DNA of 64,000 nt from Gemmatimonadaceae bacterium (GCA_035606695.1 DATNEW010000033.1:1-64000), one strand, 5' to 3'. Positions 9,566 through 42,646 are shown, counted from the first letter of the stretch. Notes: generated by a model from the sequence alone, not told the origin. Made by a program: numbers and translations.

Positions 9566-10942
9566 TTACTCATTACCGGCATGCGGAGCGCGCCCACGGG
9601 GAAGGGCAAGGGTAAACGCGGAGCCGACCCCTTCCTGGCTGACGACGGACACCTCGCCGCCCATCGCGCGCGCCAGCTTGCGGCTGATCGCGAGTCCGAG
9701 CCCGCGCCCTTCGCGCCTGCCTTCTTCGGCGCGCGCCAGCGCGTTGCGTCCACGGACGAACGGCTGAAACACCAGCCCGAGATCTTCCTCGGCGATCCCG
9801 ATCCCGGTATCGGTGACGCGGATCCAGACACAATCGCCGACGACCCGCGCGTCGACCGTGACCGTCGCACCGGGGCGCGAGAAGCGCACGGCGTTGGTCA
9901 TGAGCTGCAGCAGGATTTCCTCAAGGCGCGTGGCGTCGGCGCGAACGTAGATGTCCCGATCGACCGAATCGCCCGACACGCCGCTGATGATGTGCCTGGC
10001 GGCGGCGCTTGCTTCCGTCGCTCGCCTGGCGCTCGCCACCGCGTCATGCACGGGCACGTCTTCAGTGATGAGGTTCTCGCCGTCATCCCACCGCGCGAAC
10101 GCGATCACCGAGTCCACCAGATTCAGCAGGTGGCGTTCGTTCGCCTGAATCCGCTGCACGTCGTGCTGTTGGTCGCCGGTGAGCGGGCCGCGAACGCCCT
10201 CGGCGAGCAGCTGTGCGTATCCGAAGATCGCGTGCAGCGGCGTTCGAAGCCCGTGGCTCAACGACGACATGAAGGCGAGACGCTCGGCCAACGCCACCTC
10301 GGCGGCGGCGATCGACCTGGCGCGTTCATCCGCGCGCATCGCGTTGTCGATCGCGAACGCGGCGCCCGCCGCGATCTGCTCCGCCAGCACGCGATCCGCA
10401 TTGTCGAACGCGCGGCCGCCGCGCGGGCCGATGAACGTCAACGAGCCGATCGTGTCGTCGCGAACGCGCAACGGCACGACCATCACGGCCCCCACGTGCA
10501 GGGCGCGCAAGGCGGTCAGCTGCTCGCGCGAGCCGGCGACTTTGGCGAGCGCGTCGTCGGAGAGCTCGGCGATGATCTCGGTGCGGCCCGTGCGCCAGAC
10601 GCTTGGCGCTCCTCTCCGATCGCGAGGAGGCGGCCAACCGTCGATCAGTGTGGCGGCCGCCGACTGGACGAGCGGGTCAGGATGCAACACCGCGACGCGG
10701 CGCGGTGGCGAATCGTGTCCCTCGCCGTGGCGCAGGTCGAGGATGCTCCAGACATTCGGATGCGGCAGCGTGAACCGGGCAACCGACGCGAGCGTTTCGT
10801 CGAGGCCGTGCGCGTTCATGGCGAGCGTGGTCGCGCTCGCGACGAGCCGGCTGGCGTTTTTCAGAAAATCCGCTTGCTCCTCGTGCGCGTGCAGGCGCTC
10901 GATCAATTGGGAGCGAAGCTCGGTCGTGTCTCGGCTGAGCAT
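9566..10942 (-). CDS. Cytosolic GAF-domain sensor histidine kinase
   Basis: From the ATG at 10942 (GAGGG four bases upstream) the product is 458 aa; an upstream start at 11038 is possible. Residues about 45-205 form a GAF domain, then comes a HisKA dimer with phospho-acceptor H230 (SLSHGLRTPLHAIFGYAQLL) and a HATPase_c domain with the N, G1 and G2 boxes (LMTNAVRFS, VTDTGIGIA, GRGLGLAISRKLA). There is no membrane segment, so it senses a cytoplasmic signal. It is divergent from the similar kinase at 11219 and belongs to the locus A signalling group. Confidence 0.9.
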   Translation of the reverse strand: MLSRDTTELRSQLIERLHAHEEQADFLKNASRLVASATTLAMNAHGLDETLASVARFTLPHPNVWSILDLRHGEGHDSPPRRVAVLHPDPLVQSAAATLIDGWPPPRDRRGAPSVWRTGRTEIIAELSDDALAKVAGSREQLTALRALHVGAVMVVPLRVRDDTIGSLTFIGPRGGRAFDNADRVLAEQIAAGAAFAIDNAMRADERARSIAAAEVALAERLAFMSSLSHGLRTPLHAIFGYAQLLAEGVRGPLTGDQQHDVQRIQANERHLLNLVDSVIAFARWDDGENLITEDVPVHDAVASARRATEASAAARHIISGVSGDSVDRDIYVRADATRLEEILLQLMTNAVRFSRPGATVTVDARVVGDCVWIRVTDTGIGIAEEDLGLVFQPFVRGRNALARAEEGRREGRGLGLAISRKLARAMGGEVSVVSQEGVGSAFTLALPRGRAPHAGNE

Positions 10943-11218
10943 GGTGCCCTCGAAAAGCAAACGGGGCGACGGAGCCGGCGGAACCGAGTTGTTCGATTGG
11001 CAAGGCTGCGACGGAAGGGGCACGGTCATCGGTCGCACGCAACGTGCCGTTCACGCGCCGCGTGCCGCATTCCGACTACATTCCGGCTGAACGCCGCGCG
11101 ATGGCCACGATTGTGCTCGTCATGATGACGACGTAGATACAAGTGCAGAGGAGCCGTGCGTCATGATCAGCGCGAGGGCAGTGACCGGCCGGACGCGTCG
11201 AAGCGCCGCCCGGATCGC

Positions 11219-12589
11219 ATGACGACGATCAGCCAGCAGACCATCGCCGGTCGGTTGATCGTTGCCGCGCTCGCTGAAACCGATCGCGCCGACGCGGCGG
11301 AGCGACTCTCGGATCGCCTCGACTACCTCGCGGGACTTCAGGAACGGTTGGCTGCATCGCTCGACGAGACGGAGATGCGCACGACGTTGTCGGGCGTCTG
11401 CCTTCCCGGCGCCGACTCGTGGGCCATTGTTGATCTCGTCGAGGCCGACGATCATCTGCTGCGCCTCGCCATCCCGAGAGCCGATCCCGCCGACCAGGCC
11501 ATCGCGGATGAGTTGAACGGTCAATGGGCTCCGCGCGACGACGACCCGTTCGGCTATCCGGCCGTCAAGCGTGCTGGAGAAACGATCGCCCTGACCGAGC
11601 ATGTGGACGACGTGCTCGCCGCGGCGGCGCACCGGCCGGAGAACATCGCGGTTCTCCGTGCGCTCGGATTCGCCGCGTGCCTGGTGGTGCCCATTCGCGC
11701 GAACGGCCGCATCACGGGCGCCATCACGTTCGTTGCGCGCCGCGCTCGTGCCGCGTACACGGCCGACGAGATCGAGTTCGCCGAGCAGGTGGCGGCGGCA
11801 TGCGGACGCGCGCTGGACAACGTGCGTCAATTCGCGGCGATGGATCGGCGCCGGAAGGTCGCCGAGGACTCCGACCGCGCGAAGGTCGACGCCTTGGGGC
11901 AGGTGACGCACGAGCTGCGCACGCCGCTCAGCGCCATCGGCGGCTACGCGGAGCTGATGGAAATGGGCGTGCGCGGGCCGATCACGAACGACCAACGTCG
12001 CGACCTCGAGCGCATTCGTTGGAATCAGCAGCACTTGCTGTCGTTGATCAGCCAGATTCTTGCGTACGTTCGCGTCGAAACCGGCCGCGCCGAGTTCACG
12101 CTCGCCGACGTCGATCTCGGACCGGCCGCGGTCGCGGCCGCGGAGATGGTCGCGCCGCTCATCGAGGCGAAGGGGCAAGTCGTAACCTACGAAGCATGCG
12201 AAGCAGGAGCTGCGGTGGCGCTCGGCGACATCGACAAGATTCGGCAAATTCTCATCAACCTCATCACGAACGCGATGAAGTATTCACCCGACCAGGCGCG
12301 GCTCGTGGTGCGCTGTGGAACGAGCCGAACCGCCCGCTTCGTCGAAGTGTGCGACGAGGGCGAAGGTATTGCCGCGGACAAGCTCGACTCCATCTTCGAG
12401 CCGTTCGTGCAACTGCCGGGCACGGCGGCGAAGCGCGGCGGCGGTGTCGGGTTGGGCCTGGCGATCGCCCGCCAGCTCGCGCGCGGCATGCACGGCGAGC
12501 TTTCCGTCGCGAGCGAGCTCCACGTCGGCTCCGCGTTTCGTTTGACGCTTCCGAGCGCTGAACAGGCGCGGCGCGCCACGGATTCGTGA
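11219..12589 (+). CDS. Cytosolic GAF-domain sensor histidine kinase of locus A
   Basis: This 456-aa protein has a helical N-terminus (QQTIAGRLIVAALAETDRAD), a GAF domain at about 50-205, HisKA with H231 (QVTHELRTPLSAIGGYAELM) and a complete HATPase_c domain (LITNAMKYSPDQ, GGGVGLGLAIARQLA). The start at 11219 is favoured because the frame of the homologous fragment at 34287 begins at the same residue and the DNA upstream has indels there. It overlaps the next gene by one base (TGATG), so kinase and response regulator are coupled. In-frame translation could also start at 11156. Confidence 0.88.
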   Translation: MTTISQQTIAGRLIVAALAETDRADAAERLSDRLDYLAGLQERLAASLDETEMRTTLSGVCLPGADSWAIVDLVEADDHLLRLAIPRADPADQAIADELNGQWAPRDDDPFGYPAVKRAGETIALTEHVDDVLAAAAHRPENIAVLRALGFAACLVVPIRANGRITGAITFVARRARAAYTADEIEFAEQVAAACGRALDNVRQFAAMDRRRKVAEDSDRAKVDALGQVTHELRTPLSAIGGYAELMEMGVRGPITNDQRRDLERIRWNQQHLLSLISQILAYVRVETGRAEFTLADVDLGPAAVAAAEMVAPLIEAKGQVVTYEACEAGAAVALGDIDKIRQILINLITNAMKYSPDQARLVVRCGTSRTARFVEVCDEGEGIAADKLDSIFEPFVQLPGTAAKRGGGVGLGLAIARQLARGMHGELSVASELHVGSAFRLTLPSAEQARRATDS

Positions 12590-12963
12590 TGACGACGTCA
12601 CCAGCGGCGACGTTGCTCATCATCGAGGATAACGAAGACAATTGCGTGATCATGTCCGTGTGGCTCAAGCACGCCGGCTATCAGGTCGTGCTGGCGCACG
12701 ACGGCGTGCGGGGCGTCGCGCTGGCGCGTTCGATCGTGCCCAGTGTGATCCTGATGGACGTCGAGCTACCGGGGATGGACGGATGGACCGCCGCGCGAGC
12801 GTTGCGCGACGATCCGGCGACCAAGGACATCCCCATCATCGCGCTGACGGCGATGGCGCTGCCGCAAGACGAGGAGCGTGCGCGCGAGGCCGGCGTGGAA
12901 CTGTATCTGACGAAGCCGGTGAGCCTGGCTCGCGTGCTCGAGAGCGTGCAACAGGTTCTGTGA
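12589..12963 (+). CDS. Single-domain response regulator (CheY-like)
   Basis: The 124-aa receiver has all canonical residues: acidic pair in LLIIEDNEDN, phospho-acceptor D57 in ILMDVELPGMDGW, T in IIALTAMAL and K in LYLTKPVSL. It has no output domain, so it should signal through protein contacts. Its ATG overlaps the stop of the GAF kinase at 11219, its obvious phosphodonor. The KaiC-like ATPase downstream is a plausible target (inference from gene order). Confidence 0.92.
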   Translation: MTTSPAATLLIIEDNEDNCVIMSVWLKHAGYQVVLAHDGVRGVALARSIVPSVILMDVELPGMDGWTAARALRDDPATKDIPIIALTAMALPQDEERAREAGVELYLTKPVSLARVLESVQQVL

Positions 12964-12965
12964 AC

Positions 12966-13005
12966 GGTTCCAGTCGGTTCCAGTCGGTTCCAGTCGGTTC
13001 CAGTC
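12966..13005. repeat. Tandem 10-bp repeat (GGTTCCAGTC x4)
   Basis: Four perfect, contiguous copies begin two bases after the response-regulator stop codon. A short palindrome CTCGTTTGAACGAG follows at 13015-13028. The array lies in the 180-bp gap before the next gene. Confidence 0.95.
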
Positions 13006-13142
13006 GTACTCGTTCTCGTTTGAACGAGAGTTCGACGTTGCCGTGATAGCGCGTGCCTGGGAGGTACGCTAGTCTCAGGAAGCGCACGACGCCCTCCACA
13101 CGCGCCGGTAGCGCCAACGACCCATCCAGGAGTGCCATTCAC

Positions 13143-13547
13143 ATGTCGCGCGACGGAGGTTCTGTCAACGCGAAAGCGGTGGCGCGACGGCTCGTGGAGC
13201 GCGGAGCGGACGGCGAGGTGCAGGCAGAGGCACTCGGCGCGGCGATGCAGCGGGCTGCCGGGCAAGTCGTCGACGATCTCAGAAGTGTCGTCGGCGCCGA
13301 CGGACTCGACGCGTTGCTCGATCGCGCGATTGCGCGTGCTCAGCACGAACACCCGGCGGTCGCGAGCATGCGGCGCGCCGACGACAGCGCCGGCATTCCA
13401 CTGAACGTCATGCCGGCGATCGAGGCGCACGGAGCCGCAGCCGCTCGCGCGGGGCTCGAAGCCGTCCTCGCGGCGCTCGTCGACATTCTCACCGCCCTCA
13501 TCGGAGCGGACATGGTACGTAATCTCCTTCACGCCGACGATTCATGA
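13143..13547 (+). CDS. Unknown 134-aa protein coupled to the KaiC-like gene
   Basis: The start ATG 13143 has AGGAG upstream. The protein is Ala-rich and helical with conserved-looking segments AGQVVDDLRSVVGADGLDAL and NVMPAIEAHGAAAARAGLEA, and ends LIGADMVRNLLHADDS. No signal peptide. Its stop overlaps the ATG of the KaiC-like gene (ATGA at 13544-13547), which implies a functional link with that ATPase. It has no counterpart in locus B, where this region is deleted. Family not recognised. Confidence 0.7.
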   Translation: MSRDGGSVNAKAVARRLVERGADGEVQAEALGAAMQRAAGQVVDDLRSVVGADGLDALLDRAIARAQHEHPAVASMRRADDSAGIPLNVMPAIEAHGAAAARAGLEAVLAALVDILTALIGADMVRNLLHADDS

Positions 13548-15040
13548 CCGCTTCTCCATCCGTGTCCGACGATTCGGTGATGCGGAACATCGCCACCGGT
13601 GTTCCGGGGCTCGATGCCGTGCTTGGCGGCGGCCTCTGCGAGTATGCGTTCAACCTCATCGCGGGCGCCCCGGGCGCGGGCAAGACGACGCTGGTGCAAC
13701 AGATCTTGTTCGCCAACGCGACGCGCGAACGGTCGGCGCTCTATTTCACGGTACTCGGCGAACCGACGGTGAAGATGCTGCGCTACCAGCGGCAATTCGA
13801 GTTCTTTGATGCAGCCCGGGTGCCGACGGCCGTGCGATTCGTCAATCTCGCCGCGGAAGCCGCGAGTGGCGACCTCGAGGCCGTGCTGCAGCGCGTCATC
13901 GCCGAGGTCGCGGCCGCCCAGCCGGCGTTCGTCGCGGTCGACTCGTTTCGCACCATCGTCGGCGGACGTCGAGCGGGGGAATCGCACGAGTCGCTGGACA
14001 TGGCGCATTTCGTCAACCGCCTGGCGCAACAACTCACCACGTGGGAAGTCACGTCGTTTCTGATCGGCGAGTATTCGGACACCGAGCAGCGCCAGCCGGT
14101 GTTCACGATCGCCGACACCATCCTGTGGTTGTCCGAGGACGTCGACCGCAACTCGGCGACGCGCAAACTGCGCGTGGTGAAAGTACGCGGTCGAAATCCG
14201 ATGCCGGGACTGCACACCTTTCGACTCAGCACGGCGGGCGTACAAGTCTTTCCGCGGATTCCCGAGCAGGCGCGGCCGCGCCTGCTCCAGCCGGTCGTCC
14301 GTCTCAGCACCGGCGTGCCTGGGCTGGATGAGATGACGGGCGGCGGCATTCCGGCGGGCGACGTGGTGCTCCTCACCGGGCCGGCGGGCAGTGGCAAGAC
14401 GACCTTCGCGACGCACTTCGTCGCGCAGGGCCTGGTCGACGGCGAGGCCTGCGTCGTCGCCGTGTTCGAGGAATACCCCGACGCGTATCTGATGCGCGCC
14501 AAGACGGTGTCCGCCGGCTTGGAACACATGATCGACATCGGACGATTGGTCGTGACGTATCTGCGTCCGCTGGATTTGTCGGTGGACGAGATGCTCGCCG
14601 AGATCGAGCGCGCCGTCCAGCGCGTCGGCGCCACGCGCGTCGTCATCGACTCGCTCTCGGGATTCGAGGTGGCGCTCGCGCCCAGCTATCGCACAGACTT
14701 TAGAGAATCATTATACCGGCTGGTCGGCGCGCTCACCGTGTCGGGCGTGACGGTGCTGATGACGGACGAGGTGATGGACGCGAGCCCGGGCGGCCGCTTC
14801 ACGCACGAGCGCGTGTCGTTCATCACCGACGACATTCTCGTGCAGCGCTACGTCGAGATCGGCGGCGCGCTGCACAAGGTGCTGTCGGTGGTCAAGATGC
14901 GCGGGAGCGAGCACGCGACTGACTTCCGCACCTATCGACTCACGGCGAGCGGCGCGGTCATCGGCGAGTCGCTCGAGCGGTATCACGGAATCACGACGGG
15001 AGTCCCGACGCTGGCGGCGCGGGCGGACAAAAGTCCGTGA
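13544..15040 (+). CDS. KaiC-like double-domain ATPase (RecA fold)
   Basis: The 498-aa protein is two tandem RecA/KaiC domains, each introduced by the family hallmark (TGVPGLDAVLGGGL near 18 and TGVPGLDEMTGGGIPAG near 256). Walker A motifs are GAPGAGKTT (41-49) and GPAGSGKTT (279-287); Walker B strands are PAFVAVDSF and TRVVIDSLSGFE. Length is close to that of cyanobacterial KaiC (about 519 aa), but no KaiA or KaiB gene is near. Expected to be a hexameric ATPase or autokinase. It is the last gene of kinase-regulator-unknown-KaiC, each joined tightly. Confidence 0.92.
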   Translation: MTASPSVSDDSVMRNIATGVPGLDAVLGGGLCEYAFNLIAGAPGAGKTTLVQQILFANATRERSALYFTVLGEPTVKMLRYQRQFEFFDAARVPTAVRFVNLAAEAASGDLEAVLQRVIAEVAAAQPAFVAVDSFRTIVGGRRAGESHESLDMAHFVNRLAQQLTTWEVTSFLIGEYSDTEQRQPVFTIADTILWLSEDVDRNSATRKLRVVKVRGRNPMPGLHTFRLSTAGVQVFPRIPEQARPRLLQPVVRLSTGVPGLDEMTGGGIPAGDVVLLTGPAGSGKTTFATHFVAQGLVDGEACVVAVFEEYPDAYLMRAKTVSAGLEHMIDIGRLVVTYLRPLDLSVDEMLAEIERAVQRVGATRVVIDSLSGFEVALAPSYRTDFRESLYRLVGALTVSGVTVLMTDEVMDASPGGRFTHERVSFITDDILVQRYVEIGGALHKVLSVVKMRGSEHATDFRTYRLTASGAVIGESLERYHGITTGVPTLAARADKSP

Positions 15041-15041
15041 A

Positions 15042-15085
15042 CTCTCCATGAGCTCTCCATGAGCTCTCCATGAGCTCTCCATGAG
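15042..15085. repeat. Tandem 11-bp repeat (CTCTCCATGAG x4)
   Basis: Four perfect contiguous copies begin two bases behind the KaiC stop codon. Each carries the near-palindrome CTCTCCATGAGCTC across the junction. It is the third tandem array of 10-11 bp within 8 kb and lies at the same place relative to the stop codon as the array at 12966. Confidence 0.95.
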
Positions 15086-15140
15086 CTCGCGCGTCGAGCC
15101 GGCGCGTGGCGCCGCCGCGCGTCGCGTCCGCTTGTTTTGC

Positions 15141-15313
15141 GTTTTCTAAAGTCCGCCGGCATTCCGGTGCCGCGGAGCCAAAGACCCGCCGCCGGTGTAT
15201 ATTACGAATGCTGGTGTGTGGCCTGTGCGCCACCTCCCCCTGGTCTCGCGGGCGTTACCGCCCCCGGCGACTCGAGAGCCTCTCGGTCCAGCTGTCCTCT
15301 GATCGGGAGCGCC
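15141..15313 (+). promoter_or_regulatory. Conserved leader of the pseudo-receiver gene, copy A
   Basis: The 173 bp before the start are strongly similar to 40756-40932, including GTTTTCTAAAGTC, GGTGTATATTACGA and TGCTGGTGTGTGGCCT. From GTATATT to the ATG the two copies have equal length. A hairpin TGGC-(loop)-GCGCCA differs mainly in its loop. CACCTCCCCC (15231-15240) is complementary to the ribosome site GGGAG (15305-15309), so the leader may fold over the start. Alternatively the same frame encodes an N-terminal extension; both fit. Confidence 0.55.
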
Positions 15314-15697
15314 ATGCGCAGAGTCGCCGGCCGAACCGTCCTCATCGTCGAGCCGGATGCCGACTCGCGCGCGCAACTTCGCGCGACGCTCGAATCCGAC
15401 GGCTACACCGTCATCGCGACCAGCGGCGGCGACGACGCACTGTCCTTGATCGACAATCCGCGAATCAATCTCGTGGTGACCGAGCTCTACCTCGGAAATC
15501 GCAAGAGTCGTTGCCTGCTGAACGCGATCTGCACTCCGGCGCCGCGGCGGCGCGCCAAGGTATTGGCATACACCACGCATGGCCAACCGAAAGACCGCGC
15601 GTGGGCGGCCGCCTCCGGCGCGGATGCCTACGTGCTCAAAAAGAACGGCGCGGCGCGACTGCTCGAAGTTGCGGACCGGCTCGGACGAGCGCGATGA
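15314..15697 (+). CDS. Pseudo-receiver protein (Glu in place of phospho-Asp)
   Basis: ATG 15314 follows GGGAG with good spacing. The 127-aa receiver-like protein keeps the fold pattern (VLIVEPDADSRAQL, LAYTTHG, AYVLKKNGAARLLE with the conserved Lys) but has E57 where the phospho-Asp belongs (NLVVTELYLGN), and one of the two metal-binding acids is Pro. It should not be phosphorylated normally; Glu may mimic the active state. It is over 80 percent identical to the copy at 40933. The stop overlaps a short frame at 15694. Confidence 0.85.
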   Translation: MRRVAGRTVLIVEPDADSRAQLRATLESDGYTVIATSGGDDALSLIDNPRINLVVTELYLGNRKSRCLLNAICTPAPRRRAKVLAYTTHGQPKDRAWAAASGADAYVLKKNGAARLLEVADRLGRAR

Positions 15698-15768
15698 GCC
15701 GCGGTTGCGCGCGGCGCTGTCGGCCGGCGGTAACAATGACGAACCCGTCATGGAGGCGGTCGGCATGA
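15694..15768 (+). pseudogene. Remnant of the small gene intact at 41313
   Basis: An ATG at 15694 overlaps the pseudo-receiver stop (ATGA), exactly as the 79-aa gene at 41313 does in locus B, but here the frame ends after 24 codons. Only the start position and coupling are kept; the protein body is missing. The TGA lies inside the start codon of the next gene. It could still act as a tiny coupling frame. Confidence 0.45.
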
Positions 15769-16058
15769 TCCGTCGCAGCTTCACCGACCGCGACGGCGTG
15801 GCATGGACGGTGGCGGAGTCGCCGCCGCGCGTGCTCACGCTCATTCGCGCGCGCGAGCGGCGTGGCGAGCCGCGCTCACGCGGCCGCGTCGCCGGCGCCG
15901 CGAGATTCGCGACGCGCGATCTCGATATGCCGTGCTTGCGCTTCGAGTCGGCGCGCCAGCGGCGCCAGGTCACTCCGATTCCATCCGGGTGGGAGGAGAT
16001 GCCGGAGGATGAGCTCGAGGACTTGCTCGGCACGTCGACGTTGATGCGCGAGGCGTGA
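15765..16058 (+). CDS. Small conserved protein before the glucan synthase
   Basis: ATG 15765 is preceded by GGAGG at a suitable distance. The 97-aa soluble protein contains RSFTDRDGVAWTVAESPPRV near the N-terminus, RPRRRxR-type basic residues in the middle and an acidic tail (GWEEMPEDELEDLLGTSTLM). A close paralogue lies at 41584. Its stop overlaps the GTG of the glucan synthase, in both loci, so it is probably made together with that enzyme. Function unknown. Confidence 0.8.
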   Translation: MIRRSFTDRDGVAWTVAESPPRVLTLIRARERRGEPRSRGRVAGAARFATRDLDMPCLRFESARQRRQVTPIPSGWEEMPEDELEDLLGTSTLMREA

Positions 16059-19000
16059 CGACCGCTTCGCGTACGCTGTCCCTGGACGCACCGGATGTGC
16101 CCGACGACCACGGCTCCGCCGAGCGGAGTCCCATCAAGGGCGAGATCTTTGGTGCGGCGCGGCTAGGTTCGCACGCGCGACGGTTGGCGCGCCGGCACAC
16201 GCTGGCACCTGTCGCGGCGACGCAATGGCTCCGTCGCCGAGACCGCGGGCCGCTGATCGCGCAGCTCGACGCCACCGAGCGCGCCTTGAACGCGGCGCGC
16301 GATACGCTCGCGGCCGCGTCGGCGAGTGGCGCCGACGTTGGACCGGCGGGCGCCTGGTTGCTCGACAACTTTTTCGTCGTGATGGAGCAACTGCCGGAGA
16401 TCCGCTCCATGCTCCCGGCCGGCTACTACCGCGAGTTGCCGAAGCTCGCGGGCGGCGGACCGCGCGCGGGCTATCCGCGGATCTACGACATCATCGTCGA
16501 GTTGATCACGCACACGGACGGCCGCCTCGATGACGCGAGCGTGTGCATGATTCTCACGGAATACCAACGCGTGAGCGCGCTCACCCTGGGAGAGCTGTGG
16601 GCGATTCCGGCGATGTTGCGCATTGGATACCTCGAGAACGTTCGGCGCATGGCGCTTCGCGCGTCGCGCGAGGTTGCCGACCGGGCGTCCGCCGATGCGT
16701 GGGTGTCGCGTCTCATTGCCGCGAGTCCGGTGGATGACGACGAGCTCGCGGCATTCGTGCATCGCGGTCCGCCATTGTCGGCCGCATTTCTCACGCGCTT
16801 CCTCCAGCAGATTCGCAGCCGGCGCGCCGACTTCATGCCGCTGCTCTGGCTCGAGCAGTGGCTCGCCGAAGACATCATGACGGTGGAAGACGCGGCGCAG
16901 CGCTCGGCACAAGAGCTCGCGCTCACGCAGCTCGTGATGGCGAACTCCATCGCCAGCCTCCGCCACGTCGCGAACATCGATTGGACGACGCTCGTCGAGG
17001 CCGTGAGCATCGTGGAGACGACACTGCGCGAGGATCCGGCGCAGGCGTACGCCCACATGACGCGCTCGACACGCGACCAATACCGGCACGCCGTCGAACG
17101 GATCGCCAAGGGCTCGGCGCTCGACGAACACCACGTCGCGGCCGAAGCCGTTCGTGCCGCACGGACCGCGGCGGACGCCGACGGGATCGACGCGCGTCGT
17201 GATCACGTTGGTCACTATTTGATCGGCGACGGGCGGCCCGCATTCGAGCGCGCGTGTGAATTTCGCGGCGGACACGCGGCGCGGTTTCGCGAGCTCATCC
17301 TCGCGCATCCGGCCGCGTCGTATTTCGGCGCGCTGTCAGTCGTTTTCGCCGCGACGCTTGGCGTGTTGCTCTCGCCGTTCCTGCTCGTCGCGGTGTCCGC
17401 CGACCGCGCGTTGTGGTTCGTGATCGCGGCCGCGTTCGCGTGCCTTCCGGCCGCGGACGCGGCCGTCGCGATCGTGCATCAGCTCGTGAACCTCGTCATC
17501 CCCGCATCCCGTCTTGCGCGTCTCGACTATGCGGACGGCGTTCCCGAGCGCCACCGCACGGTCGTCGTTGTGCCATTGCTCCTGGGAAGTCCCGAGGCGG
17601 TGACGCGTGCGCTCGATCACATCGAAGTGCAGTTCTTGGCCAATCGCGATCGCGAGGTGCGCTTCGCGCTACTGAGCGATTTCCTCGATGCGGCCACCGA
17701 GCACACCGCGGAGGATGCGGCGATCGTCGACGCCGCGGTCGCGGGCATTCGGGCGCTGAACGAAGCGTATCGCGGCGAACACGGCGAATCGTACGCGCCC
17801 TTCTACATCCTGCATCGCGCGCGAAAATGGAATGACGCCGACGGTGTGTGGATGGGCTGGGAGCGGAAGCGCGGCAAGCTCGTCGAGTTCAACGAATTCA
17901 TACGCGGCGCGGCGGCGCAAGCGTTCGCGGTCACCGAAGGCGATCTCGAATGGCTGCGCGATGCGCGCTACGTCATCACGCTCGATGCCGACACGATGCT
18001 TCCGCGATCCGCCGCGGCGGCACTGATCGGAACGATCGCGCACCCGCTGAACGGTGCCCTGTACGATGCGGCGCGCGGTCGCGTGGTTCGCGGTTATGGA
18101 ATTCTCCAGCCGCGCGTGAGCGTGTCGCTGCCGAGCGCGAGCGAGTCGCGATTCGCCGCGATCTACGCGGGCCACCCGGGTGTCGACCCGTACACGACCG
18201 CGGTGTCGGACGTCTACCAGGACCTCTTCGGCGAAGGCACGTTTACGGGAAAGGGCATCTACGACGTCGACATCGTTCGCCAGGCGACGGACGGCCGATT
18301 TCCCGAAAACAGTTTGCTCAGCCACGACTTGCTCGAGGGAACGTTCGCCCGCGCCGGACTGGTCACCGACATCGAAGTGTTCGACGACTACCCGTCGCGC
18401 TATCTCACATCGGCTCGCCGCGCGCATCGATGGATGCGCGGAGACTGGCAGTTACTGCGCTGGCTGACGACACGTGTGCCCGGTCATGCCGGCGCCAATC
18501 GCCATCCGCTGTCGGCACTCTCGCGCTGGAAGATCGCCGACAATCTGCGCCGCAGCACGACACCGGTCGCGGTGCTGATGTGGCTCGTTGGCGGATGGAC
18601 GATTCTTCCCGGAACATGGATGACGTGGACGGCGGCCGCCCTCGCCGCCTTCGCCACGCCGTGGATCACCCCGCTGGTGTTCGCGGCCGCGCGCCCGCCG
18701 CGCGATCAAGCTTGGCATCCGTACTACACGGCCATCGCCCGCGATGCGTCGCGCGCGCTCGAGCAGATCGTTTTGGCCGTCGTGCTGCTCCCCGACCAGG
18801 CGTTGTTGGCCGTCGACGCGATCGCGCGGACGTTGATTCGCGTGCGGTGGACGCGCCGTGACATGCTCGAGTGGCAAACGGCGTCGCACGCCGAACAAAC
18901 GACAGGACACGGTCGGCGATCGGTGTGGCGCCGCATGTGGCCGTCAGTGCTGCTCGGCGCGAGCATCATGGCGATCGTCGCGTGGCATGCGGGCGTCGCT

Positions 19001-24637: not shown

Positions 24638-24791
24638 TCGAGCGGCAAGCCGCGCCAGCGATTAGATTACCATGTAGCTGGTGAGCAGCCTCCGGCGGCT
24701 CCCTTTCGGCGCTCCCTGTCGCGCTTCGTGCGCGCGGTACGCCTCGAGCCATTTTCTGGCCAGCGTCTTCGCGTCCAGTCAGGGAGGCTCG

Positions 24792-31925: not shown

Positions 31926-31936
31926 CGGCGTCCGAT

Positions 31937-33031: not shown

Positions 33032-33035
33032 TCGC

Positions 33036-33503: not shown

Positions 33504-33744
33504 GATGCGTACTCCGCGTCCGTGGGCGTGGCGGGCAGGGTGAGAACGGCGAGTCGAGACGATCCTACGATGCAGCGTAGGATTCGACGCCGAGCGGCGC
33601 AATCGCACGAAGGGGCTAGACCGCATCCCGTGGTCTCGCGTCCGCATGCGAGATGGCACTGCTCCAGTCCGGTCGGCGGTGCGTGACGCGTCTCGCCCAT
33701 TCGTGCGATAGCGGTGCCGAGGCAGCGAGCGTTACCATTCGATC

Positions 33745-34098: not shown

Positions 34099-34286
34099 CG
34101 CCGACCGGCATGTCGCTCGCCGAATAATCGCGCTCCCGGCGCTGATTCTTTATTTACCCGTTCGCGCGATACCAAGTCGAGCCGACCGAGCATAGTGTTC
34201 ATAGGCGCGGGACGATATCGATGTGAAGGAGCGGTGCGCCTTACGATCAACGCGACGGCGGGAAGTGACGCGGCTCGGCAGACCGC

Positions 34287-34740
34287 GTGACGGCGTACAC
34301 CGAGCAGACCATTGCCGGCCGGTTGATTTCCGCGGCGCTCGCTGAAACCGATCGTGCCGATGCCGCCGAGCGCCGGTCCGCTCGACTCGACTATTTGGCG
34401 GGCTTACAGGAACGACTGGCTGCATCGCTCGACGAATCGGAGATGCGCAAGACGCTGTCCGGGGTCTGCCTGCCGGGCGCGGACTCGTGGGCGATCGTCG
34501 ATTTGGCGGAGTCTGACGGGCGACTCATTCGCCTCGCGATTCCACGCGCCGACGCGGCCGATCAGGCGATCGCCACGTTGCTCAACGACCAGCGGGCTCC
34601 GCGGGACGACGACCCGTTCGGATATCCCGCCGTGATGGCTACAGGGAAACCGATCGTACTCGTCGAGGACGTGGACGTGGACGCGGCGCTTGCCGCGGCG
34701 GCGCACAGCCCCGAGAACCTCGCGATCCTGCACGCCGGCC
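34287..34740 (+). pseudogene. N-terminal fragment of a GAF histidine kinase (locus B)
   Basis: From GTG 34287 about 150 codons closely match the kinase at 11219 (EQTIAGRLISAALAETDRAD, LSGVCLPGADSWAIVDLAES, RDDDPFGYPAV). Identity stops after SPENLAIL, in the middle of the GAF domain; the HisKA and ATPase parts are gone. The following DNA is the interior of a KaiC-like gene in another frame, and the kinase frame runs on meaninglessly to 34823. A deletion therefore joined kinase to KaiC gene. Confidence 0.9.
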
Positions 34741-36072: not shown

Positions 36073-37521
36073 GAACGTGTACGCGATGGTGAACGCGCCC
36101 TCCGACGACGTGAGGTTCGGCAACTTCCCGTACCGCGCGTCGCGCGTCGATTCGACGAACCGCACGCCGAGCGCGTGCCCCCCGACGAACCGCACGTTGA
36201 AGCCGATGTTGCCGCGGAAGATCGTCTCGGACCCGTGGACGTCGTCGGAGCCCAAGCCGCTCACGTAGTACTCGCGTGCGGCCATATCAAGCATCAGCCG
36301 ATCGCCGGCAATGAACCGCAGTGTCACGAGCGCTTGCGGCGTCACGCCAAAATGGTAGTCGCGAATGGCGGCGTTGGTCGGCGTGCTGGGAATGATCGTC
36401 GTCGAGCCCGCGGCGCCATACCCCACGCCGCCGAGCGCCGTGCCCTGCATCGCGAGCGCGGGCGTGAGCCAGTACTGGCGCGTCGTGCCGAGCGACGCCG
36501 CGGTGCTCGACACACGAAACAGGAACGGCGAGATGTAGTCGTACGTTCCATACACTCCCCACACGCCGCGCGACGTCGGCGTCTCCTTCGTCGGCGCGCC
36601 CTTGAGCAGGCCGCGAATCATCACGTTCTCGATGGGGTTGCTCGAGTTGGACAAGAGCGACATCTGCAAGTCGAAGTAGTCGAGCGGACGCGTGTACGCA
36701 TAGCCCGGTTTTCCCGGCAGGCCGTACGACGCCCAGACCTCCGCCGTCGCGCCGCGATTGAGCAGCGTTCCGGGCACGGCGGTATTGTGCGCGACGGCGT
36801 CGAGCGATGCGCCCAATCGCACCTGCCACGACGTTGCCGGCGTGCTGTCGGGCAATTCGGCGCGAAACCGCTCGCCGAACACGCGGCGATTCACCGCGCG
36901 CGGCTGCGAGATCGCGTCGGCGACGAAGTCGTGCCAACGCGGCGCCTTGCCGCCACCCGCCGGCCGATCCTTGAGCACGAGATCCGCCACGCGATAGAGC
37001 GCTTCGCCAAGCAGGCTTCCCGCTTGGCCCGTCGTGATCATGTCGTTGATCGACGGCGGATCGGTCTCGCCGGCCATCTTCCAGATGAAGCTGCCGATGT
37101 TGGCGTGCGCGAGCGACGTCCAGAACGTGTGGCCGCTCGAGCGCGCCAGACCATACATCATCGCGCCCTGATAGGGATGCTCGAATTGATTGACGTTGAA
37201 CGGATCCTGGTCGTGCACCCAGCGCTGCGTGCGGAGATGGTCCCACGTGCTCGCGAACGTCGCGCTGTACACGCGCTTGCCGTCCTGCATCTCGTTCGCG
37301 TACGCAACGCGATCGTAGACGCTGAGGACGGTGAGGAAGCTCGCGATCTCGACGACGGGAAGTACGTTGCTCTTGCCGCCCGTGGTATCGGCCGACGCGC
37401 CCGCCTGCGCCGCGGCGAAACGCGTGCCAGCCGTGACGAGCGCGGCGAACCACACGAGCGATCGCAGGACCAGTCCCGCTCCAGGAGAGGATTGATAGAA
37501 CGCTGATGAAAGGCTCGTCAT
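36034..37521 (-). CDS. DUF3943 outer-membrane-type protein
   Basis: From ATG 37521, 4 bp behind the kinase stop, the 495-aa protein begins with a signal sequence (SLVWFAALVTAGTRFAAAQA). It contains the DUF3943 pattern: QDPFNVNQFEHPYQGAMMYG, SSGHTFWTSLAHANIGSFIW and MAGETDPPSINDMITT. The C-terminal half alternates like barrel strands and ends LGADRFGAVKWR. Likely located in the outer membrane; function unknown. It is the last gene of the four-gene minus-strand operon and overlaps the end of the KaiC fragment on the other strand by 39 bp. Confidence 0.8.
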   Translation of the reverse strand: MTSLSSAFYQSSPGAGLVLRSLVWFAALVTAGTRFAAAQAGASADTTGGKSNVLPVVEIASFLTVLSVYDRVAYANEMQDGKRVYSATFASTWDHLRTQRWVHDQDPFNVNQFEHPYQGAMMYGLARSSGHTFWTSLAHANIGSFIWKMAGETDPPSINDMITTGQAGSLLGEALYRVADLVLKDRPAGGGKAPRWHDFVADAISQPRAVNRRVFGERFRAELPDSTPATSWQVRLGASLDAVAHNTAVPGTLLNRGATAEVWASYGLPGKPGYAYTRPLDYFDLQMSLLSNSSNPIENVMIRGLLKGAPTKETPTSRGVWGVYGTYDYISPFLFRVSSTAASLGTTRQYWLTPALAMQGTALGGVGYGAAGSTTIIPSTPTNAAIRDYHFGVTPQALVTLRFIAGDRLMLDMAAREYYVSGLGSDDVHGSETIFRGNIGFNVRFVGGHALGVRFVESTRDARYGKLPNLTSSEGAFTIAYTFLGADRFGAVKWR

Positions 37522-37525
37522 GCGG

Positions 37526-38728
37526 TCAGATGGTGACCGCCATCGGCAAGCGGATCGAGAAGCGCGACCCGGCGCCAAGTTCGCTTGCAACCTCCATCCG
37601 TCCGTTCATTTGTCTGACGAGTGCGTCCGAGATCGCCAACCCAAGCCCCACGCCCGGCGCCGCCGCCGTCGTCTCGCTTCGGTAATAGGGCTCGAAGATC
37701 GACGCTTGATCGGCGTGCGAGATACCGGGACCATTGTCCGACACGAGGACTTCTCCGCACGGGCCCGAGTCGGTCACGCCCTCCGCGGTGCTGAGCGTAA
37801 TCGACCCCTCGGCGTGGGTAAACTTCACGGCGTTGCCGACGAGATTGACGAGCACCTGGCGCAGCCGCGCCCCGTCGCCGACGACCACGACGTCCGGTCC
37901 GCCAACCAGCTGGAGCCGCTGCCGTTTCGCGTACGAGGCCGGGGTGAGCAGATCCACCGCTTCCCTCGCGACCTCGAGGAGACGCACCGGTTCGCTGCGG
38001 ACGTTGATGGCGCCCGCGCTGAGCCGCGCCATGTCCATGACGTTGTCGAGCAGCGAGAGGAGATGCCGCCCGGCCATGCGAATGCGGCCCAGGCCTTCCC
38101 GCTGTTTGGCGGAGATCTCCCCATACAACCCATCTTCCATGATCGTACAGTATCCCTCGATCGCGCCGAGCGGACTGCGGATGTCGTGCGCGAGGGTGGA
38201 GAGCGCGCGATCCTTCGCGTCGGTCGCGCCTTTGCTCGCGCGAAGCTGATCCGCCAACTCCACACGCACCTCGCCAAAGAGGCGCGCGTTCTCCAGCGCG
38301 GACGCCGCTTGATCCGCGAGGGCCGAGAGCAGCCATTCATCGATGTCGACGGCCGGCCGGTCGAGCGCGAGAGCGAGGAGCCCGATCACCGTGCCGCGCG
38401 CGATGAGCGGCACCGCGAGCAATTGGTCGCCGGGCACGTCGAGCAGTCCGCCGAGACGTGCCACGACCTCGTCCGACAACGGCGCGCCGAAGCGAGCCAC
38501 TCGATCCGCCGCGACGCCATGGGACGCGCGCACCTGCAGCAGATCGTCGGCATCCTGGAGCATCAGGACTGCCGACGGCGCCGACAGCAGATCGGCCCCC
38601 TGTTCCACCGTGAGGCGAGCAACTTCGTCGAGCGACGTCGTATACGAGAATGCGCGGTTGATGCCGGAAAGCTTTCGCAGTTGGCCCACCCGCGGCGCCA
38701 CGCCGCGGGGCTGACTTCCGATCATCAC
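37526..38728 (-). CDS. Cytosolic GAF-domain sensor histidine kinase of the minus-strand operon
   Basis: About 400 aa: GAF at roughly 25-155 (INRAFSYTTSLDEVARLTVE), HisKA with H181 (LSTLAHDIRSPLGAIEGYCT) and HATPase_c (LVGNAVKFTHAEG, VSDNGPGISHADQA, GVGLGLAISDALV). No membrane helix. The start (GTG 38728 or ATG 38725) overlaps the KaiC stop, so the two are coupled. Kinase next to KaiC repeats the locus A arrangement, but the sequence is clearly different from the kinase at 11219. Confidence 0.9.
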   Translation of the reverse strand: MMIGSQPRGVAPRVGQLRKLSGINRAFSYTTSLDEVARLTVEQGADLLSAPSAVLMLQDADDLLQVRASHGVAADRVARFGAPLSDEVVARLGGLLDVPGDQLLAVPLIARGTVIGLLALALDRPAVDIDEWLLSALADQAASALENARLFGEVRVELADQLRASKGATDAKDRALSTLAHDIRSPLGAIEGYCTIMEDGLYGEISAKQREGLGRIRMAGRHLLSLLDNVMDMARLSAGAINVRSEPVRLLEVAREAVDLLTPASYAKRQRLQLVGGPDVVVVGDGARLRQVLVNLVGNAVKFTHAEGSITLSTAEGVTDSGPCGEVLVSDNGPGISHADQASIFEPYYRSETTAAAPGVGLGLAISDALVRQMNGRMEVASELGAGSRFSIRLPMAVTI

Positions 38729-40152
38729 GTGACGATCTCGACGCCCGCGCCGCTGATGGCGATTTCTCGAATCCGGAGGTCGTGTGCGCTGCCACGCGTC
38801 TTGAGAATCCGGATCGTACGGCGCGTGGTTTCCTCGCCACCGACCGTGAGCAACAGGACATTGTCCGACAGATAGCTCATGGCGTTCTGCACGCCCTGAA
38901 TGGACACGGAGTTTGCCGTCGTCTCGAAGTTGAGGATGCTCGTGATGGTGCTCACGGCGAAATGCTGCACGAGCGCATAGAGATAATCGTGCAGCCGCTG
39001 TTGATCCGTCGCCGCGCTCGCGAGATCGCCGAGCGCGTCGATGACGACTCGACGAATCTTGCCCTGTTGAATGCGACGGAACATGTCGACGATGATGCTG
39101 TCGATCTGCAGTTCGACCGGCGACGCGTACACGAGCTGGAGTCCGTGCGCCTGCGCTTCTTCCAAGTCGACGCCCAGGCTGCGGATGGTGCGCATGAGCT
39201 GCGACGGATTTTCCTGAAAGTTCATATAGAGACTGGGCTCGCCTTCGCGGGCTCCCTCCAGCGCGAACTGCAAGCCGATCGTCGTCTTCCCGGCGCCCGA
39301 CGGTCCGGCCAGCAGCGTGGTCGTACCGCGCCAGACGCCGCCGTCGAGCATGCGATCGAGGCCCGCGATGCCGGTCGAGATCCGTTCGTCCGGTGGTTCG
39401 TAGCCTTCCGGCATCGACGGGCTGACGAGCCGCGGATACATGTCCAAGCCCGCATCGGTGATCCGGAATGCGTGTGCGCCTTCGAGATACTTGCTGCCGC
39501 GCAGTTTGTAGACGCGGAAGTATCGTTCATCGCGGTTGCCGAGCCGCCGTCGCGACATCTCGACGATGCCGTCCGCGATGGCGAACTCGGGGTAGCGCAG
39601 GATGTCGTCCTCGGTGTATTCGCCGAGGAGGAAGGCGGTCGTTCCATACGCCGTGAGCAACGCCGTGAGCTCGTACACGAGCCGGCGCCGGTCGCCGTCG
39701 GACGGCATGAGATCGTGCACGGCCTTGAATGAATCGATGACGATGATCTTCGGCGCGAGCGAGCGAATCGCTTCCTTGAGCACCGGAATCAAGATGGCGG
39801 GTCCCTCCTTCGACAACTGTTCGCCGACGTCCTCGTAGATCACTTGCGTGCCGAGCTTGGTCTCGTCGAAAAAGCGAAAGCCCTGGAGATAGCGCACGAC
39901 TTTGGAGAGCGGCTCCGACAACGTCGTGAAATAGAGGATCGGCCGGTCGTCGGCCGCGTTGTCGAAGATCAGTTGTTCGGCGAAGATCGTCTTGCCGGAG
40001 CCCGGGTGACCCATGATGATGTTGATCGAATTCGTCGGGAATCCGCCGCCGAGGATGTAGTCGGCCTCGCGATTGCCCGACCGCATGCGGTCGCCTGTTT
40101 CGCCGTCGACGTCTCGCACCAGGCGGCGATCGGGAGGTAATAGAATGCTCAT
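38725..40152 (-). CDS. KaiC-like double-domain ATPase of the minus-strand operon
   Basis: The 475-aa protein has two RecA/KaiC domains: Walker A GHPGSGKTI (48-56) and GPSGAGKTT (283-291), Walker B KIIVIDSFKAV and RVVIDALGDLA, and the domain starter STGIAGLDRMLDGGVWRG. The first domain start is unusual (SGNREADYILGGGFPTNSIN). It is only distantly like the KaiC of loci A/B. Its ATG overlaps the stop of the regulator at 40149 (ATGA). Probable hexameric ATPase working with the kinase and pseudo-receiver on either side of it. Confidence 0.92.
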   Translation of the reverse strand: MSILLPPDRRLVRDVDGETGDRMRSGNREADYILGGGFPTNSINIIMGHPGSGKTIFAEQLIFDNAADDRPILYFTTLSEPLSKVVRYLQGFRFFDETKLGTQVIYEDVGEQLSKEGPAILIPVLKEAIRSLAPKIIVIDSFKAVHDLMPSDGDRRRLVYELTALLTAYGTTAFLLGEYTEDDILRYPEFAIADGIVEMSRRRLGNRDERYFRVYKLRGSKYLEGAHAFRITDAGLDMYPRLVSPSMPEGYEPPDERISTGIAGLDRMLDGGVWRGTTTLLAGPSGAGKTTIGLQFALEGAREGEPSLYMNFQENPSQLMRTIRSLGVDLEEAQAHGLQLVYASPVELQIDSIIVDMFRRIQQGKIRRVVIDALGDLASAATDQQRLHDYLYALVQHFAVSTITSILNFETTANSVSIQGVQNAMSYLSDNVLLLTVGGEETTRRTIRILKTRGSAHDLRIREIAISGAGVEIVT

Positions 40153-40553
40153 GTTACAACCGTCATGACATGGTCCTGGACTGTGGTCAGCTGGCTGACC
40201 GTTGCGATGAAACTGGATTCGATGAACGGCTTGCGCAGGAACCCGCGGGCGCCGGCGTCTTCGGCCCGCGTCGCGGCCGCGAGAATACTGAACACGAGCA
40301 CGGGGACGTGGCGCGTCGCCGGCTCGGCGCGCAGCCGGCGGCAGAGCGTCAGGCCGTCGAGCTTGGGAATGAGGATCTCGGTGATGATCAGCGCGATCGC
40401 GTTCGACGTCGCATAGGCGAACGCCGCCTCGCCGTCGTCGACAAATGCCACGACGAAGCCGGCGGCCTCGAGTGCGAATGATTGAAGATCGCGGACGTTG
40501 CGATCGCGCTCGGCAATGAGAATCAGCCGACCAGCCAACTGGTCCGTCAGCAT
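40149..40553 (-). CDS. Receiver-like protein with Glu at the phosphorylation site
   Basis: A 134-aa single receiver starting the minus-strand operon. The fold signature is complete (LILIAERDRNVRDLQSFALE, DGLTLCRRLRAEPATRHVPV, FLRKPFIESSF with the Lys), but the acceptor strand reads ALIITEILIPKLDG, so E59 replaces Asp, and the acidic pair is Glu-Arg. It resembles the pseudo-receivers at 15314 and 40933 in this substitution though not closely in sequence. It is coupled to KaiC by ATGA. A decayed relative lies at 25139. Confidence 0.85.
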   Translation of the reverse strand: MLTDQLAGRLILIAERDRNVRDLQSFALEAAGFVVAFVDDGEAAFAYATSNAIALIITEILIPKLDGLTLCRRLRAEPATRHVPVLVFSILAAATRAEDAGARGFLRKPFIESSFIATVSQLTTVQDHVMTVVT

Positions 40554-40755
40554 TCGCGACGACGCCGAACCATGGTGCCTCCGCCAACGCAGGAGTGGGC
40601 TGACCAGTCATGGCTCGGGAGGGCCGGCGCGTCTGCCGCGATGCCGAAGCCCCAAACGGGCAGCCACCAGGCTGCCCACCAGCAACGTCGTAATCTAGCA
40701 CATTACAGGCCGCGCCGCTCGACACCTCGCTCGTGCACCGCGCGGCCTCATTTCG

Positions 40756-40932
40756 GTTTTCTAAAGTCTTCCGAATTGTGTGTCGGCGCCGCCGAGCGCC
40801 AGATCCGCGGCCGGTGTATATTACGACTGCTGGTGTGTGGCCTCGGCGCCACCTCCCCCTGGTCGCGCGGCTCTCAGCGCCGCGACGACTCGAGAGCCCC
40901 TCGGTCCAGCGTGTCCTCTGATCGGGAGCGCG
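40756..40932 (+). promoter_or_regulatory. Conserved leader of the pseudo-receiver gene, copy B
   Basis: Homologous to 15141-15313. It shares GTTTTCTAAAGTC, GGTGTATATTACGA, the TGGC...GCGCCA hairpin and CACCTCCCCC (40850-40859), complementary to the ribosome site GGGAG at 40924-40928. The hairpin loop differs (CTCG versus CTGT) while the stem is kept. It lies 200 bp from the divergent operon start at 40553, so part of it may serve as a two-way promoter region. Confidence 0.55.
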
Positions 40933-41316
40933 ATGCGCCGAACCGCCGACCGAACGGTCCTCATCGTCGAGCCGGACGCCGACTCACGCGCTCAGCTTCG
41001 CGCGACGCTCGAATGTGATGGATACACCGTCATCGCGACCAGCGGCCGCGATGACGCGCTGTCGCTGATCGACAACCCGCGGATCAACCTCGTAGTCACC
41101 GAGCTCTATCTCGGGAATCGCGAGAGTCGTTGCCTGCTGAATGCGATCTGTTCGCCAACGCCGCGACGGAGCGCGAAGGTGTTGGCGTATACCACGCACG
41201 GCCGTCCGAAAGACCGCGCGTGGGCGGCGGCATCGGGAGCCGACGCGTACGTGCTGAAAAAGAACGGCGCGGCGCGGCTGCTCGAGGTAGCGGCCAAGCT
41301 CCGTCGCACACGATGA
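40933..41316 (+). CDS. Pseudo-receiver protein, locus B copy
   Basis: Close paralogue of the gene at 15314: 127 aa, same start context (GGGAGCG then ATG), E57 in NLVVTELYLGN, VLKKNGAARLLEVA at the C-terminus. Substitutions are mostly conservative, and there is no frameshift, so selection has kept this gene although its neighbours on both sides decayed. It is probably coupled to the 79-aa gene behind it through ATGA at 41313-41316. Confidence 0.85.
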   Translation: MRRTADRTVLIVEPDADSRAQLRATLECDGYTVIATSGRDDALSLIDNPRINLVVTELYLGNRESRCLLNAICSPTPRRSAKVLAYTTHGRPKDRAWAAASGADAYVLKKNGAARLLEVAAKLRRTR

Positions 41317-41552
41317 GCGGCGACCCGCGCGACGCACAGCGATCATTCATACGCGCGCCGCTGGCAACGCCGTCCGAGATCGCGAAGCAAGACCCCGCGT
41401 ATCCCGCGACCGACGCCACACAGCCGAACGAGTCATTGTTCGCCGACTGGCGTCAGCGGTTGGCGCGAAACCTCTCGCGGCGCAGCGACGGCCGATGGGA
41501 TCCGTTGACGTACGTTCATGACGCGCGGCGCGATCCTGTCGAGGACGAATGA
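41313..41552 (+). CDS. Small 79-aa protein coupled to the pseudo-receiver
   Basis: ATG 41313 overlaps the previous stop. The product is hydrophilic, with PSEIAKQDPAYPATDATQPN, then ESLFADWRQRLARNLSRRSD and GRWDPLTYVHDARRDPVEDE, suggesting a disordered N-terminus and one basic helix. In locus A only a 24-codon remnant remains at the same place. I recognise no family. Confidence 0.6.
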   Translation: MSGDPRDAQRSFIRAPLATPSEIAKQDPAYPATDATQPNESLFADWRQRLARNLSRRSDGRWDPLTYVHDARRDPVEDE

Positions 41553-41583
41553 TCCCGGCGAGTCGGTCATCGGAACGATCGCC

Positions 41584-41877
41584 ATGATCCGTCGCACTTT
41601 CACCGACCGCGACGGCCTTGCATGGACGGTGGCGGAGTCGCCGCCGCGCGTGCTCACGCTCATTCGGCCGCGCGAGCGGCGTCACGAGCCCCGCTCGCGT
41701 GAACGCGTCGTCGGTGCCGCGAGATTCGCGACACGCGACCTCGGTCTGGCGTGCTTGCACTTCGAGCCGGCGCGCCAGCGGCGCCAACTCACGCCAATTC
41801 CGTCGGGGTGGGAAGAGATGCCGGAGGACGAGCTCGAGGATCTTCTCGGTGCGTCGACGCTGTTGCCCGACGCGTGA
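41584..41877 (+). CDS. Small conserved protein, locus B copy
   Basis: 97-aa paralogue of the gene at 15765, with TFTDRDGLAWTVAESPPRVL, RPRERRHEPRSRERVVGAAR and the acidic tail GWEEMPEDELEDLLGAS. An upstream in-frame ATG at 41518 exists, but the locus A start matches 41584. Its stop still overlaps a GTG (41874) that once began a glucan synthase gene, now a remnant. Confidence 0.75.
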   Translation: MIRRTFTDRDGLAWTVAESPPRVLTLIRPRERRHEPRSRERVVGAARFATRDLGLACLHFEPARQRRQLTPIPSGWEEMPEDELEDLLGASTLLPDA

Positions 41878-42199
41878 CGACCGAGTCGCGCGCGCTGGCC
41901 GCGGCCGCACGCAGCTGGTTCGGGACGGCGCCGGCCTTCTGCTGTTGCTCGCGCGGCCGTCGACCGGTCGCCGCGCGATCCGGACTACATCAGGGTGAAT
42001 CTGCTGGGTATACGCGAGAATGGGGCGCGGTACACCCACGCCGCACTCTCGACCGTGCTCGCCATGGTTCGCCATGGCGCGGCTGGGCGCGGAAGACGGT
42101 GACGGCGCACTTATGAGAATGCTCAATCCGCTCGCTCGCGCCGGTACGCCGGAGGACGCGCGCCGCTACGCGACGGAGCGGTATGTCATCGCCGGCGCG
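41874..42199 (+). pseudogene. Remnant of a second cyclic beta-1,2-glucan synthase gene
   Basis: After a GTG and a few codons like the locus A start (TTESRAL), the sequence jumps to the C-terminal region: it matches 24022-24290 (VDRSPRDPDYIRVNLLGIRE, NGARYTHAALSTVLA, RMLNPLARAGTPEDARRYAT). About 2600 codons are missing, and at least two small indels break the frame. Near 42199, after VIAGA, the similarity ends and an ADOP permease begins. No active enzyme can be made. Confidence 0.9.
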
Positions 42200-42646
42200 G
42201 ACCCGCCGGACGTCATAACCATGGAGCAAGCGCATGAGGATGAGCTCCGGCCGTGGCGGCTTGGCGCTCAGCTCTTCGCGCTTCCGGGAATCATCGCGTT
42301 GATCGTCGCCACCTTCGGCATGTACAGCGCAATGGCGTACGTCGTGAGTCAGCGCACGCGCGAGCTCGGCGTCCGAATCGCGCTCGGAGCGCAGCGACGG
42401 CGAATCGTCACCGACGTCGTGGCCTCAGGAGTGCGCCCGCTCGCCGCCGGTCTGGCCATCGGCCTCAGCGTCGCGATCGCGTTCGGGAGTCTCGTCGAGA
42501 CGATGCTCTATGCCACAACGCCGCGCGATCCGCTGACGTTAGCCGCCGTCTCGCTTCTGCTGTTGGCGTCCGGAGTTGGCGGGATGCTCGCGCCGACCTA
42601 CCGCGCGCTGCGCGTCGATCCGATGACCGCGTTGAGAGCCGAGTAG
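42200..42646 (+). pseudogene. C-terminal ADOP permease fragment fused in frame to the glucan synthase remnant
   Basis: About 148 codons match the last FtsX unit of ADOP permeases: EDELRPWRLGAQLFALPGII, GMYSAMAYVVSQRTRELGVR, IALGAQRRRIVTDVV and the terminal RALRVDPMTALRAE. The rest of the permease is absent. The reading frame continues from the glucan synthase piece (in-frame ATG at 42113), so a chimeric membrane protein of about 177 aa could be made, probably without function. Confidence 0.88.

Follow-up and report, generated by a model that had tools for sequence, protein, structure and literature searches.

A KaiC-kinase and cyclic-glucan-synthase-like gene cluster and its eroded second copy in a soil Gemmatimonadaceae genome

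When a gene cluster occurs twice on one contig and the second copy has lost its longest gene while keeping several open frames, is the second copy a dying duplicate of the first, or does it have a history and perhaps a function of its own? The question is raised by a 64,000-nucleotide stretch of DNA (the window; GCA_035606695.1, DATNEW010000033.1:1-64000), which is taken from the start of the 184-kb contig C33. The contig belongs to a 5.9-Mb, 99% complete genome (G000) of a soil Gemmatimonadaceae bacterium, whose nearest named relatives, judged by KaiC, are Gemmatimonadaceae metagenome bins. Locus A (11219-24637) encodes a histidine kinase, a KaiC-like ATPase and a very long cyclic-glucan-synthase-like protein; between the last two lie a conserved leader, a gene for a pseudo-receiver (pRec) and a gene for a 97-residue protein. 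Locus B (34281-42197) holds parts of the same set. The original prediction was that B arose as a duplicate of A and decayed, the two small genes being selectively preserved. B is indeed homologous to A and eroded. The trees, flanking genes and patterns of loss point, at slightly better than even confidence, to A and B being anciently diverged direct repeats of one cluster that have lost different parts, with a leader and pRec in B that may still be able to act.

Compared by blastn (8-27 kb against 32-45 kb), the two loci share five collinear plus-strand blocks, 75-86% identical and arranged as direct repeats. These comprise the kinase N-terminus (A 11213-11650, B 34281-34724; 75%, E 2e-83), KaiC (A 13736-15013, B 34750-36027; 86%, E 0), the leader with pRec (A 15141-15703, B 40756-41322; 84%), the 97-residue gene (A 15757-16091, B 41576-41910; 85%) and the synthase tail (A 24015-24287, B 41916-42197; 79%). 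The similarity is far above chance and is spread over more than one domain, which bears out the claim of a shared gene order and strand. A tblastx dot plot of A and B was uninformative because chance matches at high G+C drown the signal.

Three further genomes are used for comparison: G005, a sister species of the same genus with a single-copy locus, G001 and G004. The plus strand of locus A carries a GAF-HisKA-HATPase histidine kinase (11219-12589), with orthologues in G005 and G001, followed by a single-domain response regulator (12586-12963), a small gene (13134-13547) and an intact two-domain KaiC-like ATPase (13544-15040). Beyond these are the leader (15196-15313), pRec (15314-15697), the 97-residue gene (15765-16058) and the synthase-like gene (16055-24637; 2860 residues). 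Locus B, on the same strand, begins with a kinase remnant of residues 1-148 (34287-34736). A deletion of about 2.1 kb has removed the kinase catalytic part, the response regulator, the small gene and the first 61 or so residues of KaiC, which is rejoined from about residue 62 (34741-36072). The deletion was correctly predicted; the resulting fusion of kinase and KaiC is, however, out of frame, with the kinase frame stopping at 34823 and the KaiC frame open from 34690. The 433 KaiC codons shared with A stay open, although only the second domain is complete: the first P-loop, with its Walker A motif, is deleted and there is no clear start, so that B does not encode a KaiC with two P-loops. The leader (40815-40932), pRec (40933-41316; 90% identical to that of A) and the 97-residue gene (41584-41877) follow. 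Both small genes are open, as had been claimed, but with the KaiC frame also open they are not the sole survivors. The synthase is, as anticipated, reduced to scraps (41874-42197): about a dozen codons from its start and a frameshifted 0.28-kb tail with 10 bases inserted and one lost. Within 42020-42646 this scrap continues into an FtsX-type permease gene (C-terminal part), and the contig holds further permeases of this type.

The age of the two copies is indicated by KaiC and the kinase. G005 is a close relative, its rpoB start and upstream DNA being 87-89% identical to those of G000, versus 78-86% for G004, a baseline limited to the first part of the gene, which is all that the family match in G005 spans. 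In a maximum-likelihood tree of KaiC (427 codons), the topology is ((A,G005),B),G001, with 100% bootstrap support for A and G005, and an approximately unbiased (AU) test rejects A and B as sisters (p=0.0016). The kinase fragment gives the same topology (bootstrap 97). Synonymous divergence (dS; NG86) between A and B is 0.99 for the kinase and 0.60 for KaiC, about twice that between A and G005 (0.48 and 0.34) and similar to that between A and G001 (0.93 and 0.65). Because both trees place B outside the pair of A and G005, A and B appear to be paralogues older than the split of G000 from G005, and recent duplication within the genome is rejected for the kinase and KaiC. Copying of A within this lineage, followed by decay of the copy and the later addition to it of a minus-strand operon, would suit collinear same-strand blocks on one contig, and the 97-residue pair alone has an A-B dS below either value to G005. 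This scenario is nevertheless contradicted by the AU test, the kinase tree and the dS of both kinase and KaiC, and its late operon by an operon at the same site in G005; we consider it very improbable. The original prediction is thus partly right: B is an eroded homologous copy, but its derivation from A is at odds with the trees and with the flanks of the G005 locus.

Those flanks are the flanks of B, with an AI-2E-family transporter gene upstream (31937-33070, minus strand), which likewise adjoins the single locus of G005 on its upstream side, and the operon downstream. The left flank of A is instead that of G001, a divergent GAF-histidine kinase gene (9566-11038, minus strand). An alternative history is that the kinase-KaiC segment of B is a xenologue whose source lineage branched off close to the G001 split, and which replaced the native segment and was then truncated, A having been inherited vertically. 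The dS of this segment to A or G005 is about equal to that to G001, the adjoining operon and AI-2E flank look vertically inherited, and gene trees alone do not separate an old paralogue from a transfer. The grouping of B KaiC with G001 is, however, rejected by the AU test (p=0.011), no donor was found among the family genomes searched, and A must still have moved off the flanks that G005 keeps. Such a transfer seems unlikely, but it is a serious alternative.

The minus-strand operon, which the original prediction placed inside B but not A, is present there, with its reading frames corrected, and A lacks it. Frames chosen by substitution periodicity against G005, together with Pfam, give genes for a DUF3943 protein (36034-37590), a GAF-histidine kinase (37526-38728; periodicity and Pfam), a second two-domain KaiC, KaiC2 (38725 to about 40080; periodicity), and a response regulator (40149-40553; 87% identical to that of G005), all on the minus strand. 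The operon is thus a second receiver-KaiC-kinase module with an added DUF3943 protein. By the same measures the open reading frames at 37518-38336 and 38337-38861 were set aside as wrong frames, and the listed frame at 38725-40725 is longer than KaiC2, its 5' part having the periodicity of another frame. In G005, KaiC and the leader are separated by the same four genes. Overall identity of the blocks is 87-89%, rising to 90-92% within the KaiC and DUF3943 genes, with dS of 0.29-0.40, and G005 has an extra 3.9 kb between the kinase and DUF3943 genes. Since all four genes occupy the same site in this single-copy locus, the operon is ancestral to the position of B and missing from A, and is not a later arrival in B. 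The corresponding site in A, the gap between KaiC and the leader, contains short tandem repeats of about CTCTCCATGAG at 15041-15095. A further decayed operon-type KaiC copy (L046; C33 of G000, 152626-154770), 63-78% identical and with a broken frame and an internal TGA, adjoins a copy of the gene at 24681-25130 and is 110 kb from the loci of the window.

The proposed check on selective survival was the ratio of nonsynonymous to synonymous divergence (dN/dS). Between A and B this ratio is 0.09 for pRec, 0.27 for the 97-residue gene and 0.11 for KaiC, all below 1, but it is also 0.16 for the kinase scrap, which is no longer a kinase; the pairwise values therefore mostly reflect the time before truncation and do not by themselves prove selection. 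In neutral simulations with 10-13% change, substitutions only, the frame was still open in 28-37% of cases for pRec, 39-47% for the 97-residue gene and 2-4% for KaiC, so that for the two small genes, with a chance of about 0.3-0.5, an open frame is weak evidence by itself. It may be that B is no more than a dead paralogue, inactivated recently, in which chance alone has kept the remaining frames open and further decay will follow. The ratio for the non-working kinase scrap, the chance openness of either small frame, and a KaiC without its first Walker A motif or a clear start would all fit such a state.

The more useful evidence, which lends partial support to constraint, is not plain dN/dS but the contrast with the neutral synthase scrap adjoining the small genes. 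This scrap has 7, 12 and 16 B-specific changes at codon positions 1, 2 and 3, plus two indels, with no clear constraint, and 19 changes among 182 sites at positions 1 and 2 (about 10%). At these positions B-specific changes are fewer, at 3-4%, in pRec (7/252, p=0.0016), the 97-residue gene (7/194, p=0.013) and KaiC (36/866, p=0.0015), in a comparison of small counts among genes that differ in rate and with a more distant outgroup for pRec. The kinase scrap does not differ from the synthase scrap (34/296, p=0.77). A branch codon model puts omega for the B branch at 0.045 in pRec and 0.032 in KaiC, with omega=1 rejected for both (twice the log-likelihood difference 6.4 and 39, respectively). These contrasts, along with a leader and pRec start retained at 88% identity to A, make a dead B unlikely as well. 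Selection probably keeps the B pRec and possibly the 97-residue gene; in the latter, third positions also have few B-specific changes (7/97), and gene conversion could account for part of its similarity to A. Relative to the synthase scrap both small genes look constrained, but selective survival is not theirs alone, as KaiC is constrained as well. The lack of codon periodicity in the synthase scrap suggests that the synthase was lost first, and the still gene-like kinase scrap that the kinase domain was lost later. Locus B is, in sum, a case of ordinary gene-duplicate erosion with an informative pattern.

Profile comparison assigns pRec a receiver fold (PDB chains of CheY, PhoB and FrzS), and in all five full-length sequences, those of A, B and three homologues, the phospho-acceptor aspartate is replaced by glutamate (TELYL). 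By sequence, then, it lacks the conserved aspartate of a phosphorylatable receiver and is a pseudo-receiver. In G005, the pRec beside the synthase is frameshifted and mostly deleted, while the 97-residue gene and synthase there are intact; in G001, pRec ends after about 47 receiver residues directly 5' of the synthase, and the 97-residue gene is absent. The leader is kept ahead of the synthase where pRec is broken. Elsewhere, leader and pRec stand alone in G004, and G001 has a full pRec without a leader. Gene order in these relatives, which had been suggested as a check, thus shows pRec to be separable from the synthase, and this favours the suggestion that it has a job of its own. The stand-alone leader and pRec are near a fatty-acid desaturase gene in both G004 and G005 (L091:6557-8871 and L097:4695-7038). 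A pRec homologue with the TELYL motif also occurs in another genus (G093, L124:1492-2724), with a weak leader-like match downstream of it; the gene after it, judged by reading its translation, resembles initiation factor IF-1. For the 97-residue protein, the predicted structure consists of two hairpins and a helix (predicted local distance difference test score 74), with no PDB match at E<=0.001.

In most pRec loci of the genus, the 117-nucleotide leader precedes pRec. Its 5' end is marked by a TATATT box, near 15198 in A and 40817 in B, and its 3' end by a probable ribosome-binding site. A covariance model run over 148 genomes gives strong matches only in G000 (twice), G005, G001 and G004. 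G005 has a second copy, weak yet well placed, before its more distant pRec. The matches in G127 (E 1.6e-5) and G077 (E 0.003) do not precede a pRec gene; a degenerate DNA pattern proved too loose beyond the genus. Candidate pairings include a closing stem (GCTGG/CCAGC) and a hairpin (GTGGC/GCCAC). In the alignment 95% of cells pair, with only one two-sided change in six sequences, and 85 of 500 shuffles were as good. No Rfam match at gathering level was found in the window, the best weak match on the region being on the other strand (E 0.85). A coding peptide was considered and set aside, as single-base indels separate the copies. The leader is unusually conserved and restricted to the genus, and may be an unnamed regulatory element.

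Taken together, these observations suggest a model of anciently diverged repeats. The ancestral cluster would have combined a histidine kinase, response regulator and KaiC with a separate unit of leader, pRec, 97-residue gene and synthase, and would have been duplicated before G000 and G005 split, with differing losses in each copy. A would have kept the kinase-KaiC-synthase line without the convergent receiver-KaiC-kinase operon. B would have kept the operon, a truncated KaiC, the leader, pRec and the 97-residue gene, its synthase going first and its kinase domain later. G005, with an A-type kinase and KaiC between B-type flanks, would most readily have arisen by gene conversion between the copies and subsequent loss of one. 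Functionally, the kinase, regulator and KaiC module may sense some cytoplasmic state and adjust how much cyclic glucan synthase is made or how active it is, with the leader as a control element of the operon and pRec as a receiver permanently in an "on-like" state, binding a partner instead of accepting phosphate. The pRec part of B could still act, either in trans on the synthase of A or with the adjoining second KaiC module. A bolder version would make the leader and glutamate receiver an undescribed control unit for the synthase, served by two opposed KaiC-kinase modules, with B as a synthase-free, trans-acting form kept for its regulation of the synthase of A; this we think improbable, though not negligible.

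Several points weigh against the model of ancient repeats with a working remnant in B. The leader-pRec segment leaves the tree unresolved, and for the 97-residue gene the A-B dS (0.34) is lower than that between A and G005 (0.53) and also lower than that between B and G005, so the loci have a mosaic history, to which another lineage could have contributed by transfer. The branch codon model gives the B copy of this gene an omega of 0.33, not significantly below 1 (twice the log-likelihood difference 1.1). In G005 and G001 the pRec next to the synthase is disrupted, so the synthase there does not require it. Finally, control of the synthase by KaiC is suggested by gene neighbourhood alone, and among 20 further Gemmatimonadaceae KaiC loci, many of which read small gene-KaiC-kinase, a synthase occurs within the stretch read in a single one (G097), where it is on the other strand.

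Comparison with known systems places the cluster among the KaiC homologues outside cyanobacteria, whose function is mostly unknown (PMC5520375). As in non-cyanobacterial KaiC-kinase systems (PMC5520375; the Rhodobacter kaiBC-kinase operon), a two-domain KaiC is found beside a histidine kinase and a receiver. The KaiC of A has two PF06745 domains over the cut-off, each with a P-loop, and is thus a two-domain KaiC-like ATPase. Unlike those systems, the cluster is linked to a cyclic-glucan-synthase-like gene, and this KaiC does not reach the thresholds that NCBIfam sets for the circadian protein (249.5 against 408 for NF006799; 168.3 against 546 for TIGR02655). No paper on a pairing of KaiC with such a gene was found in the literature searched. 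The synthase-like protein itself resembles cyclic beta-1,2-glucan synthases of the NdvB/ChvB type in its great length and in its predicted GH94 catalytic, supersandwich and glucoamylase-like domains, and at 2860 residues it agrees with the roughly 2800 expected of a cyclic beta-glucan synthase. It differs in having no Pfam glycosyltransferase match at E<=0.001, and B holds only scraps of it. The pRec protein shares with other pseudo-receivers a receiver fold without the phospho-accepting aspartate (glutamate in five homologues), but is a stand-alone protein of 127 residues with its own leader, and its lysine and threonine positions are kept in A and B. A similar arrangement occurs in two Ramlibacter loci (L063 and L064; Betaproteobacteria), where a synthase (about 44% identical in L063), KaiC (48%) and a kinase stand in one row. 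The small gene found ahead of KaiC across Gemmatimonadaceae has a similar counterpart before Ramlibacter KaiC, checked in one of the two loci. In Ramlibacter, however, the synthase is upstream of KaiC, and no pRec, 97-residue gene or duplicate was seen. The A/B pair adds that such a cluster can lose some of its parts independently of others, the small pseudo-receiver with its conserved leader being one separable part. The association of KaiC, kinase and regulator with a cyclic-glucan-synthase-like gene in both Gemmatimonadaceae and Ramlibacter offers a concrete candidate output for KaiC homologues outside cyanobacteria.

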